Shown here one piece after another: positions 29,654 through 63,268 of a stretch of DNA of 64,000 nucleotides. Source of the stretch: a virus; the IMG/VR virus record IMGVR_UViG_3300027833_000001, positions 101,128 to 165,127 of that record; one strand, written 5' to 3'. The position numbers and the translations under genes are program-made. The notes below the pieces were generated by a model. It was not told the origin of the DNA and made no database searches. It worked only from the letters and a program-made list of their open reading frames with translations. The number at the start of each line of letters is the position of its first letter. Position 1 is the stretch's first letter.

Positions 29654-29965
29654 ATGATAAAGATATCCTCAGAAGCAAAAGAATACTGGACTGGTTTACT
29701 AGAGAAATCAGAACAGAAGTATGTACGTTTATCACTGAAAGGTAGTGGATGTGCTGGTTTCGCATACGTGTGGGAGTATTCAGATGATGATTCTGATGGC
29801 ACTCTTATAGATGACTTAATTGTTGTTGATGACATAGTGCGAAATGAAGTTGCTGGTAGTACAGTAGATATGGTAACAAGTATGACTGGATCTGAGATAA
29901 CAATAACCAATCCTAACGTAGCAAGTTCGTGCGGATGTGGTGAAAGCATTCAGTTTGAAGCGTAA
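29654..29965 (+). CDS. iscA: A-type iron-sulphur carrier (IscA/HesB-like)
   Basis: 103 aa from the ATG at 29654; an open frame extends upstream inside iscU but is out of family. The three cysteines of the A-type carriers are present: C33 in GSGCAGFAY and C93/C95 in SSCGCGESI. The central region is acidic (EYSDDDSDGTLIDDL). Such proteins receive clusters from IscU and deliver them to target enzymes. It is more divergent from bacterial IscA than the IscU is from its relatives, resembling HesB-like genes of marine phages. Adjacent to iscU, 8 nt apart. Confidence 0.9.
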   Translation: MIKISSEAKEYWTGLLEKSEQKYVRLSLKGSGCAGFAYVWEYSDDDSDGTLIDDLIVVDDIVRNEVAGSTVDMVTSMTGSEITITNPNVASSCGCGESIQFEA

Positions 29966-46673: not shown

Positions 46674-47291
46674 ATGAAAGGTAATATTGAAGTCGGGTTC
46701 AAAGTCCCGAATGTAACTTTCAATACTCGGGTACTGGATACAGATAGCGATGCAGACAACCCGTATGTATGGCAACCCGTAACAGTCGATTCAATGTTCA
46801 AAGAAAAACGAGTAGTACTGTTCAGTCTACCCGGAGCATTTACTCCAACGTGTTCAACATATCAACTACCACAATTCGAAGAGATGTACAATCAGTTCCG
46901 TGAAGTTGGCATTGATGAAATCTATTGTGTATCAGTGAATGACTCTTTTGTTATGAACAAATGGTCTAAGTGGTTAGATGTTAAGAATGTAAAAATGATT
47001 CCAGATGGCTCTGGTGTTCTTACACAAGCAATGAATATGCTTGTATCTAAAGACAACGTATCATTTGGACAAAGATCATGGAGATATGCTGTCATCTTAA
47101 ATGATGGTGTGGTAGAAAAAACATTTATTGAACCTGGTTTCGGTGACAATGTTGAAGAAGATCCATACGGTGAGACTGCACCACAAAACATATTTGACTA
47201 TGTAATATTTGATAGTCCGGTGCAAGCCCCAGCCAGAGAACTGCAACTTGATCTTTTTGATGGAGGAAAGACTGCGGAATCGTTTGGATAA
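46674..47291 (+). CDS. peroxiredoxin, Prx5 type
   Basis: 205 aa. The peroxidatic Cys60 is in the motif LPGAFTPTCST, followed by LPQFEEMYNQFREVGIDEIY, and the conserved Arg is in FGQRSWRYAVIL. This is the Prx5/AhpE-like group that reduces H2O2 and organic peroxides using thioredoxin or glutaredoxin. The last 30 residues (PVQAPARELQLDLFDGGKTA) are an extension. It is inserted between clamp and clamp-loader genes; related genes are known in marine T4-like phages. Possible role: protection from oxidative stress during infection. Confidence 0.88.
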   Translation: MKGNIEVGFKVPNVTFNTRVLDTDSDADNPYVWQPVTVDSMFKEKRVVLFSLPGAFTPTCSTYQLPQFEEMYNQFREVGIDEIYCVSVNDSFVMNKWSKWLDVKNVKMIPDGSGVLTQAMNMLVSKDNVSFGQRSWRYAVILNDGVVEKTFIEPGFGDNVEEDPYGETAPQNIFDYVIFDSPVQAPARELQLDLFDGGKTAESFG

Positions 47292-47311: not shown

Positions 47312-48241
47312 ATGGACGAATTTTTATTTGTCGAAAAGTATAGACCTAAAACCATTGATGAATGTGTGTTACCAAAATCGATTAAAAAAACATTTAATCA
47401 AATGGTCAGTAATGGTGAGATAACAAATCTACTGCTATGTGGTAGTGCTGGTACTGGCAAGACTACAGTAGCAAGAGCATTGTGTAATGAATTAGATTGT
47501 GATTATATTCTAATCAACGGCTCTGAAGAATCTGGTATCGATGTATTGCGTACCAAGATTAAGAAGTTTGCAAGTACAATGAGTTTCGAAAACAAAACTA
47601 AAGTGGTCATTTTAGATGAAGCAGACTATCTAAATCCAAACTCTACTCAACCAGCATTACGTGCATTCATTGAAGAGTTCTCTGCCAACTGCCGATTCAT
47701 CTTTACGTGTAATTTCAAAAACAGAATCATCGAACCCTTACATAGTAGAACTACTGTGGTCGAGTTCCGTTTGGACAAAGCTGACAAGCCAGAAATGGCA
47801 ATGCAATTTCACAAACGTATGAAAGATATTCTGGACATTGAAGAGATTAAATACTCTGATAAAGTTCTTGCTGAATTACTCAAGAAACATTTTCCAGACT
47901 ATCGTAGAGTTCTGAATGAACTTCAGCGGTACAGTATTGGTGGTGTTATTGATGAGGGTATACTGAGCAACTTGGCTGAGATGAATGTCAAGGGACTAAT
48001 CGATGCACTCAAAGATAAAGACTTCAAGAAAATGCGCCAGTGGGTAGCAAACAATGTTGACACAGATCCACAGGGCATCTATCGTAAAGTTTATGATGCG
48101 TTGATCGACAAAGTAAAACAAGTACCTCATTTGGTGCTGTTGATTGCAGACTATCAGTACAAAGCCGCATTCGTATCAGATCAAGAAATCAATCTTACCG
48201 CTTGCCTAACTGATATCATGGCTTCAGTTGACATAAAATGA
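47312..48241 (+). CDS. gp44: clamp loader large subunit gp44
   Basis: 309 aa (T4: 319). AAA+ ATPase with Walker A GSAGTGKT at about 44-51, Walker B VILDEAD at about 101-107, and the SRC-like motif replaced by LHSRTTVVEF (arginine finger) near 146-155. Forms the 4:1 complex with gp62 that loads gp45. The gp62 gene lies 2.2 kb downstream, separated by cargo genes. Overlaps the radical-SAM gene by 4 nt (ATGA). Confidence 0.93.
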   Translation: MDEFLFVEKYRPKTIDECVLPKSIKKTFNQMVSNGEITNLLLCGSAGTGKTTVARALCNELDCDYILINGSEESGIDVLRTKIKKFASTMSFENKTKVVILDEADYLNPNSTQPALRAFIEEFSANCRFIFTCNFKNRIIEPLHSRTTVVEFRLDKADKPEMAMQFHKRMKDILDIEEIKYSDKVLAELLKKHFPDYRRVLNELQRYSIGGVIDEGILSNLAEMNVKGLIDALKDKDFKKMRQWVANNVDTDPQGIYRKVYDALIDKVKQVPHLVLLIADYQYKAAFVSDQEINLTACLTDIMASVDIK

Positions 48242-49044
48242 CACGCATAGTTGCGATAGACTATGAAATCTCAAGTACGTGCCAAGCAAGATGCCCAGTT
48301 TGTATTCGTCAAGACGGTGGAAAACTAAAAGATTTCGTACAGACCCAAAGAACACTTGATGAAACTAAACACATCTTACATGGTGTAGCCAGTGGATTAG
48401 AGTTTGTTAAATTTTGTGGTAACTATGGTGACCCAATGGGTTGTGATGCAGTTGCAGATATATCTGAGTGGCTGATATCAGAAAATCCTAAAGTTAGAAT
48501 TGATATAGCAACTAACGGTGCTATAGGAAAACCAGATACATACCGCAGATTAGGTAAAATGGGAGTCAATGTTATATTTGGATTTGATGGATCAGATCAA
48601 GAATCTAATCAGTTGTATAGAAGAAACGTCAAGTGGTCAGATGCAATGGATAATTTAAAAGCATATAGTTCTGAATGTACCGCACAACATTCTTCTTGGC
48701 AATATTTACTGTTCAATGAAAATAAGATTAATTTAGAAAGAGCAATACAAATTGCAATAGAACATAAAATTAAAATGTTTAATATTAACGAAAGACCTAA
48801 TCCATTTTCTACCTCTTTTCATTCATCTATAGATAAGTTGTCTGGAAAATATGACATAATACAAAGCGAAGGATCAAACGATTTTAAAGAACTAGCGTCC
48901 GGGGGTGAAAAACTGCGAGTGTATTATGGTGCTGGTACGTATGATGAAAGCGATATAGAATATTCACTAACACCTGCTTATAATATGTCAGCACACATAC
49001 AAAAACTAAAGGAAAAATATGACACAGACTTGCATTTCGTATAA
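48238..49044 (+). CDS. radical SAM enzyme, N-terminal part of a split gene
   Basis: 268 aa. The cluster motif CxxxCxxC is intact: C15, C19 and C22 in CQARCPVC. KFCGNYGDPMG (about 58-68) matches the GGE-like SAM-binding turn, and DIATNGA and VIFGFDGSD fit later barrel strands. The last 9 residues run into another frame: the following open frame (49019) continues the family. Removing one base from the A-run at 49013-49017 would join both frames. Probably a maturase- or SPASM-type enzyme; substrate unknown. Confidence 0.8.
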   Translation: MTRIVAIDYEISSTCQARCPVCIRQDGGKLKDFVQTQRTLDETKHILHGVASGLEFVKFCGNYGDPMGCDAVADISEWLISENPKVRIDIATNGAIGKPDTYRRLGKMGVNVIFGFDGSDQESNQLYRRNVKWSDAMDNLKAYSSECTAQHSSWQYLLFNENKINLERAIQIAIEHKIKMFNINERPNPFSTSFHSSIDKLSGKYDIIQSEGSNDFKELASGGEKLRVYYGAGTYDESDIEYSLTPAYNMSAHIQKLKEKYDTDLHFV

Positions 49045-49288
49045 CTGGACACTTTCGCATACTTACATTTCAGATTTTTCAGAAAAGAATCTGAACCTCT
49101 TTATTTCTTTTGATGATAAAGTTTTTCCTTGCTGTATGACAGCTAGTCAACAACCAAAAACAGGTGTTGCTATGAATGGTAGAAACTTACAAGAAGTGGT
49201 TGATAGTGGCGAACTTAATAATATGTACTATGATGATTTGAAAAATGGTACGCCATCAAAATTCTGTGCGGAGACTTGTGGAAGATGA
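49019..49288 (+). CDS. SPASM-like C-terminal part of the split radical SAM gene
   Basis: 89 aa beginning at ATG 49019, 5 nt after AAAGGAAAAA which could act as a ribosome site. The peptide holds Cys5, FPCCMTA at about 37-43 and a FCAETC end, the spacing of a SPASM or twitch auxiliary cluster domain. It overlaps the preceding frame by 26 nt in the +1 register. Either a separate subunit or the end of one protein. The overlap with the next gene is ATGA. Confidence 0.68.
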   Translation: MTQTCISYNWTLSHTYISDFSEKNLNLFISFDDKVFPCCMTASQQPKTGVAMNGRNLQEVVDSGELNNMYYDDLKNGTPSKFCAETCGR

Positions 49289-50082
49289 GATTAGTTCAAG
49301 GTAATTTAGCTACGATAGGTGAAGGTGCTTGTCATGCTATTGCGGAAGAAGTTCTGGAACATATGATTGTAGTCATAAGAGATCAAGAACATCTAACAAT
49401 GGATCAAGAGGTACGAATCTGTGAGATGATTGGTGAGTGCCAGAGATATGATCTGCAACCAGACAGAACAAAACATATTGCTTGCCACAAAAATATTCTC
49501 AGGGTGACTGGAGAAAAAGATGAAGATGGCGAAGAAGGATTATTTGGACATACAAGTGCATTAGATTGGCATGCCAACCAAGCATCAAATCCAGATAGAT
49601 CACCTCTTATATGGTTGAAGGCAATAAAGGGTTCACGAGGTAGTCGTACTAGCTGGATTGATATGATCAAAGCGTATGATGATTTACCAGAACAAGCCAA
49701 GATAGACTTTCAAGATTTACAGATTACTCTTGGGCATGAACATGGTAAATATTCTACTAGTCCATTCTTTAATGAACATCATTCGGTTGACAAACCAATG
49801 AATTTAGTGTATACTAATGCTCTTGGTAAAACTGGATTATACTTTCCATTTCTACAGACATTTGGTATGATAGATAAAACTGAGGAAGAGTTTCAAGAGA
49901 TTTATCAGTACTTGGTTAATCATGTTAAGCAAGAGAAGTTTATGTATCACCATGATTGGAAAGATGGTGATGTAGTTATTAGTGAGCAATGGTTGAGTAT
50001 TCATAAACGATGGCCCTTTAAGAAAATGGAAGACAGGGTACTCCACAGAATTGCTTTTGATTATTCTAAAATAGGAATTTAA
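49285..50082 (+). CDS. TauD-like 2OG-Fe(II) dioxygenase
   Basis: 265 aa from ATG 49285 (ATGA overlap); the TTG at 49276 is rejected. The TauD/TfdA pattern includes LDWHANQASNP near 95 (first metal ligand His; the usual HxD reads HxN here), LIWLKAIKGSRGSRTSW, and a distal WLSIHKRWPF, then a 2OG-binding Arg in DRVLHRIAFDY. The Asn substitution is common in some phage members, from memory, but catalytic competence is not proven. Follows the radical-SAM pair in the same operon. Confidence 0.72.
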   Translation: MRLVQGNLATIGEGACHAIAEEVLEHMIVVIRDQEHLTMDQEVRICEMIGECQRYDLQPDRTKHIACHKNILRVTGEKDEDGEEGLFGHTSALDWHANQASNPDRSPLIWLKAIKGSRGSRTSWIDMIKAYDDLPEQAKIDFQDLQITLGHEHGKYSTSPFFNEHHSVDKPMNLVYTNALGKTGLYFPFLQTFGMIDKTEEEFQEIYQYLVNHVKQEKFMYHHDWKDGDVVISEQWLSIHKRWPFKKMEDRVLHRIAFDYSKIGI

Positions 50083-55571: not shown

Positions 55572-56629
55572 GTTTAATGGAAAAGATTAAAAAGAATTCG
55601 ACAATTAAAGAAACGAGCATACTCACAGACTCAAGATTCTTTAATACAAAAGAACTAATTCAGACAACAGTACCCGCATTGAATGTAGCATTGTCTGGTA
55701 AACTAGATGGTGGTCTTACACCTGGACTGACAGTATTTGCTGGTCCATCAAAACACTTTAAGACCGCATTCGCATTACTGTTATCGAAATCATTTCTTGA
55801 CAAGTATGATGATGGTGTGATACTATTCTATGACTCAGAGTTTGGATCACCGCAAGGTTATTTCCAGTCTTTTGGTATTGATACGGATAGAGTTATGCAT
55901 ACACCGATTACTGATATCGAACAACTCAAGCATGATATCATGTCACAGTTGAATGACTTTAGTCCTAGTGATCATGTTATGATCATCGTAGACTCTGTTG
56001 GTAATCTAGCAAGTAAGAAAGAAGTTGATGATGCACTAGATGGTAAATCTGTAGCAGATATGACCCGTGCTAAACAAATGAAATCTCTATTCCGTATGAT
56101 TACACCACATCTGACAATGAAAGATATTCCAGCAGTCGTAGTGAACCATACATACAAAGAGATTGGAATGTTCCCTAAAGATATTGTGTCTGGCGGTACT
56201 GGAATTTATTACTCTGCGGATAACATCTTCATCATTGGTCGCCAACAAGATAAGCAAGGCACAGAACTGATGGGCTATAATTTTATTATCAATGTTGAGA
56301 AGTCAAGATATGTCCGAGAGAAATCTAAGATACCTCTTGAAGTCTCATTCGAAGGTGGTATAAGTAAATGGTCTGGACTGTTAGACATGGCACAAGAATC
56401 TGGTCATGTAATAAAACCAAAAATTGGTTGGTACAAAATAGCATCTGATGGCGAAGATGGAAAAAATTATCGTGCAAAAGAAACTTACACAAAAGATTTT
56501 TGGTTACCAATTCTTACTGATCCTACTTTCATATCGTGGATCGAGAAACGATATCTAATTTCTAGTGAAGCCATTATGAATGAAGAAGTAAGCCAAGATG
56601 ATATTGCCGAAGCATATGGTTCTGAATAA
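55568..56629 (+). CDS. uvsX: RecA-like recombinase UvsX
   Basis: 353 aa from ATG 55568 (ATGA overlap); the open frame extending to 55526 lies inside the previous gene. Walker A GPSKHFKT at about 58-65, Walker B MIIVDSVGN near 137-145, ADMTRAKQMKSLFRMITPHL and VVNHTYKEIGMFPKD as in T4 UvsX. Strand exchange for recombination-dependent replication, helped by UvsY. Start motif MSLMEKIKKNSTIKETSILT. Confidence 0.93.
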   Translation: MSLMEKIKKNSTIKETSILTDSRFFNTKELIQTTVPALNVALSGKLDGGLTPGLTVFAGPSKHFKTAFALLLSKSFLDKYDDGVILFYDSEFGSPQGYFQSFGIDTDRVMHTPITDIEQLKHDIMSQLNDFSPSDHVMIIVDSVGNLASKKEVDDALDGKSVADMTRAKQMKSLFRMITPHLTMKDIPAVVVNHTYKEIGMFPKDIVSGGTGIYYSADNIFIIGRQQDKQGTELMGYNFIINVEKSRYVREKSKIPLEVSFEGGISKWSGLLDMAQESGHVIKPKIGWYKIASDGEDGKNYRAKETYTKDFWLPILTDPTFISWIEKRYLISSEAIMNEEVSQDDIAEAYGSE

Positions 56630-56799
56630 TGGCTGTATGCGATAGATGTGAAAACAATATAAACGAAGCAACCGATGAAGCTATCTGTTTTGAAGGTGAA
56701 AATGGTAAATTGTATTTGTGTTCGCAGTGTGTAAACGAGATAGAAAGAGAAGTCTTTTCTACAATGAACGACCAAAACCTTAGGGAAACAAATGGATAA
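56629..56799 (+). CDS. small zinc-ribbon-like protein (56 aa)
   Basis: ATG overlaps the uvsX stop (TAATG). The peptide carries CDRC at the start and CSQC later (MAVCDRCENNINEAT; LYLCSQCVNEIERE), giving a CxxC-CxxC pair suited to zinc. An extra Cys lies between them. It overlaps gp41 by 8 nt. Position between two DNA-metabolism genes suggests a regulatory or nucleic-acid role, inferred. Confidence 0.7.
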   Translation: MAVCDRCENNINEATDEAICFEGENGKLYLCSQCVNEIEREVFSTMNDQNLRETNG

Positions 56800-58171
56800 T
56801 ATTGAGCAAATTATAATTGCACACCTGGCACATGATGAAGATTATCTTAGAAAAGTAATTCCATTTGTGAAAGAAGAATATTTTAGCGAGCCAGATACTC
56901 GCCAGGTATTCGTTTCGATTGCAGACTTTGTTGTTAAATACAATAGTTTACCATCGAAGTCTGCCCTATTGATTGCACTACAAGACAACAGGGCTGTAAC
57001 TGAAGATTTGTACCATAGATGTGAAACAATCATCAATGCATTACAGATGACAGACAATCCAAAAGAATGGTTGATTGATGAGACAGAATCTTTCTGTAAA
57101 CAGAAAGCCCTTTACAATGCTATCATGCAATCTATTCAGATTATTGATGGTAACGATACAGTGTACAGTAAAGACGCTTTACCAGACATTCTATCTACAG
57201 CACTTGGTGTAGGGTTTGATACAAACATAGGACATGATTATGTTGAGAACGCTGATGATCGATATGATTTTTATCATAGAGAAGAAGAGAAGATTCCATT
57301 CGACTTAGATTATTTCAATAAGATTACTGAAGGTGGTCTACTAAATAAGACATTGAATGTTGCACTTGCTGGAACTGGTGTTGGTAAATCTCTATTCATG
57401 TGTCACATGGCAGCCTCTTGCATTCAACAAGGAAAGAATGTTCTTTACATCACATTAGAGATGGCAGAAGAACGTATAGCAGAACGTATAGATGCCAACT
57501 TGATGAATGTCGCTATACAAGACTTGAAAGATTTGTCTAGAACAATGTTCAGTGACCGTGTAGAAAAGATTAAAGGCAAAGTTGATGGTAAATTAATCAT
57601 CAAGGAATATCCAACCGCATCTGCCCATGCAGGGCATTTTAAGGCACTGTTAGATGAACTTACCCTCAAGAAGAATTTTACTCCACATATTATTTTTATC
57701 GATTATCTTAATATTTGCACTTCCAGCAGGATAAGAGGTGGGAATGCCAATTCATATACAATCATAAAAAGTATTGCTGAAGAGTTGCGTGGTCTAGCTG
57801 TTCAAACTAATCTTCCAATCGTCACAGCTACACAGACCACTAGAGGTGGCTACAATAATAGTGATGTTGAACTGACTGATACGTCAGAATCATTTGGACT
57901 ACCAGCAACTGCCGATCTTATGTTTGCCCTTATAAGTACTGAAGAGTTAGAACAGCAAGGTCATATGATGGTCAAACAATTAAAGAATCGATACAGTGAT
58001 CCAACTAGAAACAAACGATTCATGGTTGGTGTTGATCGTGCTAAGATGCGATTGTATGATCTAGAAGAATCGGCTCAACAAAATATCACAGATTCTGGTC
58101 AAGATTCTGGTCCAGTCTTTGATAGAACTGATGCTGGTATGCGTGGCGGTCTACAAGATATAAAGTATTAG
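56792..58171 (+). CDS. gp41: replicative DNA helicase gp41
   Basis: 459 aa (T4: 475). DnaB-type: N-terminal helical domain, Walker A AGTGVGKS near 193-200, Walker B IIFIDYLNI near 299-307, and PIVTATQTTRGGYNNSD near 345-361. A hexameric 5'-3' helicase that works with primase gp61. Its last residues (GMRGGLQDIKY) end just before a TATAAATA element. Confidence 0.93.
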   Translation: MDNIEQIIIAHLAHDEDYLRKVIPFVKEEYFSEPDTRQVFVSIADFVVKYNSLPSKSALLIALQDNRAVTEDLYHRCETIINALQMTDNPKEWLIDETESFCKQKALYNAIMQSIQIIDGNDTVYSKDALPDILSTALGVGFDTNIGHDYVENADDRYDFYHREEEKIPFDLDYFNKITEGGLLNKTLNVALAGTGVGKSLFMCHMAASCIQQGKNVLYITLEMAEERIAERIDANLMNVAIQDLKDLSRTMFSDRVEKIKGKVDGKLIIKEYPTASAHAGHFKALLDELTLKKNFTPHIIFIDYLNICTSSRIRGGNANSYTIIKSIAEELRGLAVQTNLPIVTATQTTRGGYNNSDVELTDTSESFGLPATADLMFALISTEELEQQGHMMVKQLKNRYSDPTRNKRFMVGVDRAKMRLYDLEESAQQNITDSGQDSGPVFDRTDAGMRGGLQDIKY

Positions 58172-62439: not shown

Positions 62440-63201
62440 ATGCATCTAGCAATCATTGGTTGTGGTTTCGTAGGCAGTACTTATAAGAAAGTTTTAAGTG
62501 AGAGACACCAGATTCATGTTGTTGATCCGGGCATAAATAATAATAAGATAACAGACCATTCAACGTATGATGGTATTATCTTATGTTTGCCTACTCCATC
62601 AAATGATGATGGATCGTGTGATTACTCCGCAATTGTCGATGTAATCGAGCAGATAGAAGACACAACAATTCCAATACTTATTAAGAGTACTATAAATATA
62701 GAGTGTTGGCAGTATATTGAAAAGAACTTTTCAAACCCATTTACATTCTCACCTGAATTTTTGCGACAAGCCTACGCAAGAAAAGATATCAGAGAAAATA
62801 AAAGAATAATATTTGCTGGAAATAATTCACATTTTTGGTGGAAAGTGTTCTATGTTTGTAGCGATTTTACATATAAAGAGTATTGTCATACCACAGATGT
62901 AGAAGAAGTTATTCTTACTAAATATGCAATCAACGCATTTTTAGCAACAAAAGTAGCATGGTTTAACCAGCTATATGATTTTTGTGAAGAACATGGATTA
63001 GACTATGAAAAGGTCAGAAATCACGTATCATCTGACAACAGAATTGGACCAAGTCACACGAAAGTAACTGAAGAACGTGGATTTGGGGGTGCGTGTTTTC
63101 CAAAAGACACTTTAGCACTCATGGAAATGGCGAATCATACAGATACGCTATCAATACTAGATTGTGCCATAGGGTACAATGACACGATTAGATCCTCGTA
63201 G
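62440..63201 (+). CDS. UDP-glucose/GDP-mannose dehydrogenase, short form ending in tRNA gene
   Basis: 253 aa; full enzymes have about 390-450. The Rossmann start HLAIIGCGFVGSTY (GxGxxG), LCLPTPSNDDGSCDYSAI, and the catalytic Cys in GFGGACFPKDTLAL (about 210-223) are present, but the C-terminal nucleotide-sugar domain is missing. The stop TAG lies inside the tRNA-Arg gene. A two-domain short form may still act on nucleotide sugars or bind as a dimer; truncated versions occur in marine phages. Fits the glycan theme. Confidence 0.8.
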   Translation: MHLAIIGCGFVGSTYKKVLSERHQIHVVDPGINNNKITDHSTYDGIILCLPTPSNDDGSCDYSAIVDVIEQIEDTTIPILIKSTINIECWQYIEKNFSNPFTFSPEFLRQAYARKDIRENKRIIFAGNNSHFWWKVFYVCSDFTYKEYCHTTDVEEVILTKYAINAFLATKVAWFNQLYDFCEEHGLDYEKVRNHVSSDNRIGPSHTKVTEERGFGGACFPKDTLALMEMANHTDTLSILDCAIGYNDTIRSS

Positions 63202-63268
63202 TTCAGCTGGATAGAACAACGGATTTCTAATCCGTAGGTCGTAGGTTCGAATCCTACCGGGGATACCA
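63192..63268 (+). tRNA. tRNA-Arg (anticodon UCU)
   Basis: A complete cloverleaf: acceptor ATCCTCG/CGGGGAT (one G-T pair), D arm GTTC/GAAC, anticodon stem ACGGA/TCCGT with loop TTTCTAA (anticodon TCT), T arm GTAGG/CCTAC with TTCGAAT loop, discriminator A and encoded CCA. Reads AGA codons, common in this AT-rich genome. Overlaps the dehydrogenase gene by 10 nt. Confidence 0.96.

Follow-up and report, generated by a model that had tools for sequence, protein, structure and literature searches.

A radical-SAM/twitch enzyme of a T4-like phage, probably made as two subunits from overlapping genes

The window analysed here is a stretch of 64,000 nucleotides, bases 101128-165127 of a 165,127-base IMG/VR virus record. 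The source was judged to be a T4-like phage by its genes, which include those for the clamp gp45, the clamp loader (gp44 and gp62), RegA and the DNA polymerase gp43, the last being ~47% identical to cyanophage polymerases. The gene order at the locus is gp45, peroxiredoxin, gp44, a radical-SAM (rSAM) half, a twitch half, a TauD-like oxygenase, a MazG-like gene, gp62 and RegA, and the genes from gp44 through TauD are linked by end-to-start overlaps (Table 1). The TauD-like gene came next after the split pair in every clamp-loader-locus contig long enough to show it and, to judge from gene position only, its product may share a substrate with the rSAM/twitch pair. The peroxiredoxin gene between the sliding-clamp and clamp-loader genes (window 46674-47291) has relatives that are 61-76% identical, and one tRNA-Arg (TCT) gene is found at window 63192-63268.

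Table 1. Features at and around the split gene (positions in the window)
Feature	Position	Strand	Evidence or remark
T4-like clamp-loader large subunit gp44, directly 5' of the rSAM half	47312..48241	+	phrog_168, E 9.9e-121
ATGA overlap, gp44 stop / rSAM start	48238..48241	+	sequence
rSAM half, predicted radical-SAM catalytic barrel, 268 aa	48238..49044	+	PF04055, E 1.6e-7, above cut-off
CxxxCxxC (C15, C19, C22), predicted ligands of the SAM-binding [4Fe-4S] cluster	48280..48303	+	sequence
+1-frame stop TAA, three codons before ATG 49019	49007..49009	+	sequence
Shine-Dalgarno-like AAAGGA before ATG 49019	49008..49013	+	duplex energy -5.6
A5 run	49013..49017	+	not conserved: AAAAA / ATAAA / AGAAA
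Overlap of both frames, 26 nt	49019..49044	+	
Twitch/SPASM half, putative auxiliary Fe-S cluster domain, 89 aa, +1 frame	49019..49288	+	Cys pattern
Proposed auxiliary-cluster ligands	C5 49031-49033; C38-C39 49130-49135; C83 49265-49267; C87 49277-49279	+	
ATGA overlap, twitch-half stop / TauD-like gene start	49285..49288	+	sequence
TauD/TfdA-type Fe(II)/2-oxoglutarate oxygenase, directly 3' of the twitch half	49285..50082	+	PF02668, E 6.8e-29

The product of the first frame is predicted to belong to the Radical SAM superfamily by its motif near the first barrel strand together with PF04055 (32.1 bits against a cut-off of 29.5), and the CxxxCxxC motif was invariant in all split relatives. In the second frame, C38-C39 form an 'FPCC' motif and C83 and C87 lie in 'FCAETC'; all five cysteines and 25 other positions were invariant among seven divergent sequences. 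The SPASM profile PF13186 scored 14.8 bits (E 0.037) on this frame alone, below its cut-off of 21.5, and the pattern of conserved Cys ligands suggests a C-terminal auxiliary domain of the SPASM/twitch kind. Five cysteines suit one auxiliary cluster and thus the twitch type, a SPASM domain having two clusters by the definitions of PMC9012708; the auxiliary cluster of BtrN has four Cys ligands (PMC9012708). The original prediction had described this arrangement, an rSAM frame with CxxxCxxC and a SPASM-like Cys end in the +1 frame from 49019, and every coordinate checked. The AAAGGA that it placed just upstream of the second part is also there and resembles a Shine-Dalgarno site. The last 26 nt of the rSAM frame, including its own stop, are shared with the next gene, and the +1-frame TAA upstream means that the second frame cannot extend much further 5'. 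The cut falls just before the first auxiliary Cys, so that no part of the enzyme appears to be missing.

When each half was used as a query, the pair turned up in seven other contigs, always with the halves in the identical two frames; one of these contigs is identical to the window and the others are 73-79% identical. Alignment searches with the small half raised the count to 16 other viral contigs with the same split and the same overlap, in at least four lineages (window/L010/L011; L033/L043; L116; L117/L121) whose cross-lineage identity to the window is 44-55%, the small half going down to about 45%. In every split relative read, the small frame starts at an ATG, overlaps the large one by 26 nt and is preceded by a stop three codons upstream, although the constant overlap length is partly forced, since the rSAM TAA stop arises from the codons for the conserved Ser-Tyr-Asn in the small protein. 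Because the contigs derive from several metagenomes and their sequences are not the same, a shared assembly error is excluded. Both halves are under purifying selection: with unsaturated dS only, dN/dS lies at 0.14-0.33 in the large half and at 0.05-0.26 in the small one. A decayed gene or a sequencing or assembly error might have been expected from the homopolymer at the joint, as single-base indels commonly cause false splits; nevertheless, the same division is seen in 16 other contigs, some as much as about 55% divergent, and selection acts on both halves, which rules this out for practical purposes. The sequencing slip and the recent mutation considered in the original prediction thus do not stand.

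The split pair lay in the gp44-TauD interval wherever a contig showed it, except in the L117/L121 lineage, where it occupies another locus behind a cytidylyltransferase-cupin gene. In L121 (889-3269), inspection by eye placed the pair behind genes resembling NrdB, dCMP deaminase and a cytidylyltransferase-cupin fusion. That adjacency was kept despite the change of locus argues that both genes work together. Among isolated phages, the sole match to the rSAM half was 28% identical, in Pelagibacter phage Mosig, and the small half had none.

The alignment search returned hundreds of relatives, of which the best 80 were kept. All 41 distant relatives that were read (about 25-37% identity, some near-copies among them) were single fused frames, carrying the barrel and the matching C...CC...CxxxC end on one ORF. 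No fused form nearer than these was found in the viral and bacterial collections, and fused intermediates of about 37-50% identity were absent among the matches listed in the viral scans and one genome scan. The nearest homologues are fused phage rSAM-twitch proteins (L041, L045-L115), which resemble the pair in domain order, Cys pattern and predicted fold; unlike the split pair, they are encoded by a single ORF outside the gp44-TauD locus. A tree built from 36 sequences placed the split group on one side of a branch with 100/100 support. The tree is unrooted and the branch to the split group is long (2.77), so the direction from fused to split rests on parsimony, under which a fused ancestor that underwent fission is the preferred reading of these sequences. 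According to the original prediction, two conserved genes with no fused form among relatives would indicate a true two-gene system; the close relatives agree with this, but the distant ones are fused, and the two observations together are best read as an old fission. The pair is thus a real and conserved two-gene form, of old standing, of an enzyme that normally has one chain.

For modelling only, a virtual fusion of the two halves was made by one four-letter step at 49009-49012. The model reached a pLDDT of 78 and a pTM of 0.82, with low confidence at residues 191-222 and 268-281; one-chain modelling forces both halves together. Its best PDB matches were SuiB, BlsE, SkfB, MoaA, DesII and anSME (residues 1-349, Z 18-20), with Z values of 20.3 to SuiB, 19.4 to MoaA and 14 to BtrN, and sequence profiles likewise pointed to BtrN and MoaA. 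The predicted fold is thus a full-length one of barrel plus auxiliary domain, and the natural fused relative L051 gave the same PDB matches with a pTM of 0.87. SuiB, MoaA, BtrN, BlsE, PqqE and SkfB share with the pair the order of a radical-SAM barrel followed by an auxiliary Fe-S domain, although identity to the solved SPASM/twitch enzymes is only about 10-15%. In those enzymes both domains lie on one chain, whereas here they are encoded by two genes in different frames, and the two frames are kept in every close relative, so that, barring frameshifting, the products are not one polypeptide. The auxiliary cluster of SuiB has been seen to accept an electron, that of BtrN probably does the same, and MoaA binds its substrate with it (PMC9012708); by analogy, the cluster of the pair could serve in either role, electron acceptance or substrate binding.

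A programmed ribosomal frameshift (+1 or -2) at the joint would instead yield one fused enzyme, perhaps beside a short form. The frame relation and the overlap fit such a mechanism, every lineage has a P-site AAA with UAU after it, and a shift would join both domains as in the distant fused relatives. However, the A5 run, which the original prediction had pointed out at the joint, is lost outside the window's own lineage; it reads ATAAA in L033/L119/L116 and AGAAA in L117/L121, and slippage on it was rejected. No other conserved re-pairing site was found at the joint. A productive shift would be confined to the ~20 nt between the upstream +1 stop and Cys5; in none of the lineages does this stretch contain a codon with cognate +1 re-pairing, and only the A5 lineage would permit AAA to re-pair at -2. 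The joint also lacks an RF2-like CUU-UGA site (described in PMC5009743), and the conserved shift site allowing tRNA re-pairing that marks the RF2 type is absent from it. Over the 24 codons leading up to the joint, synonymous change (0.30-0.37) stays near the gene's own range (0.31-0.55 in gene windows), giving no sign of an extended RNA element beyond the overlap. In addition, a ready ATG with a Shine-Dalgarno-like site is present at the joint. Frameshifting therefore appears very unlikely and, among the four options originally left open, the two-gene, two-subunit one is favoured.

The overlap itself is consistent with separate translation of the small gene. Outside codon 2, the lineages differ at four sites, namely the third positions of the Thr4, Cys5 and Ser7 codons and the first position of codon 6 (Ile/Phe). 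Changes at three of these leave the +1-frame residue as it is, but each of the four alters the residue encoded in frame 0. This pattern indicates that the frame of the small gene is constrained in the overlap, while the tail of the large protein is free to vary. The Shine-Dalgarno-like site has an energy of -5.4 to -5.6 in three lineages (AAGGA kept), a level reached by 2.4% of 252 internal ATGs. In L117/L121 the site is weaker (AAAAGAG, -2.9), so that re-initiation from the stop just downstream would carry more of the work there.

In marine T4-like phages, as many as 12 rSAM genes have been reported, accompanied by an Fe-S carrier gene (PMC5332604), and the present phage fits this rSAM-rich picture. 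Outside the window, six consecutive, overlapping radical-SAM genes were noted at G000:C1:54485-62410 (L130); the five scanned matched N_Twi_rSAM (NF033640) with 217-346 bits, and the sixth (55942-57456) looks alike. Radical-SAM ORFs of ~500 aa, mutually alike by eye, lie at G000:C1:7928-9541 (L132) and 76498-77997 (L131). The window itself holds an A-type Fe-S carrier-like match at 29657-29944 (PF01521, E 4.5e-6, just below cut-off). N_Twi_rSAM proteins, several of them in the same genome, are like the pair in combining radical-SAM and twitch domains in a phage, but their twitch domain is N-terminal and that of the pair is downstream; the pair's protein scored 39.2 bits against NF033640, far from the cut-off of 170, and thus falls outside that family. 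NCBIfam and PHROGs offered no functional name for the pair.

With several further radical-SAM genes in the genome, and the small half evolving in its own frame, the small twitch-like protein might be a free auxiliary-cluster protein with a role of its own or with rSAM partners other than its neighbour. We consider this improbable, because the adjacency and the same overlap persist in every lineage, even in a different locus, the rSAM proteins encoded in the 54-62 kb cluster have an N-terminal twitch domain of their own, and the virtual fusion yields a complete SPASM/twitch fold.

Split genes are known from T4-like phages (Aeh1 nrdA, T4 topoisomerase gene 60, gene 43A/43B) and, like the proposed pair, they provide an enzyme in two assembling pieces. 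Such genes, e.g. Aeh1 nrdA and T4 topoisomerase, arose by endonuclease insertion, and the enzymes still work (PMC2988022). The known cases carry an inserted endonuclease gene or an intercistronic spacer; in contrast, the frames of the pair overlap by 26 nt with no gene or spacer between the halves, and the cut lies at a domain border. We found no report of a split or two-subunit radical-SAM/SPASM enzyme in the open-access papers searched, which is weak evidence of absence.

The evidence is best explained by an ancient fission of one gene, since maintained as two overlapping genes with coupled translation whose products form a two-subunit radical-SAM/twitch enzyme; we assign this reading a probability of roughly 0.8. 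We infer the separate translation of the halves, their assembly, their cluster content and their roles as follows. A gene of the SPASM/twitch class would have been divided in an ancestor of the phage group, precisely where the catalytic barrel meets the auxiliary-cluster domain, and both pieces retained as separate genes. The ribosome would read the rSAM gene through to its stop at 49042-49044, and the small gene would be started at ATG 49019 from its own Shine-Dalgarno site, through re-initiation 23 nt upstream of the rSAM stop, or in both ways. The two polypeptides would then assemble into one enzyme, in which the large one would bind SAM on the CxxxCxxC cluster and generate the 5'-deoxyadenosyl radical; the small one would hold one auxiliary [4Fe-4S] cluster that closes the active site and probably either accepts an electron or anchors the substrate. 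A bolder version, in which the twitch protein is a detachable auxiliary-cluster subunit acting in trans, whose supply or Fe-S loading switches the enzyme and which may serve other rSAM proteins, seems unlikely.

In the known SPASM/twitch enzymes the auxiliary cluster sits on the same chain, and its role is understood only in part (PMC9012708). With a natural, separate auxiliary-domain protein, the cluster could be added, left out or swapped without mutating the enzyme. The pair also serves as a warning that a seeming frameshift at a homopolymer may be genuine, and it would illustrate cleanly how a gene can be cut at a domain border, with no element inserted, and stay divided through long phage evolution.
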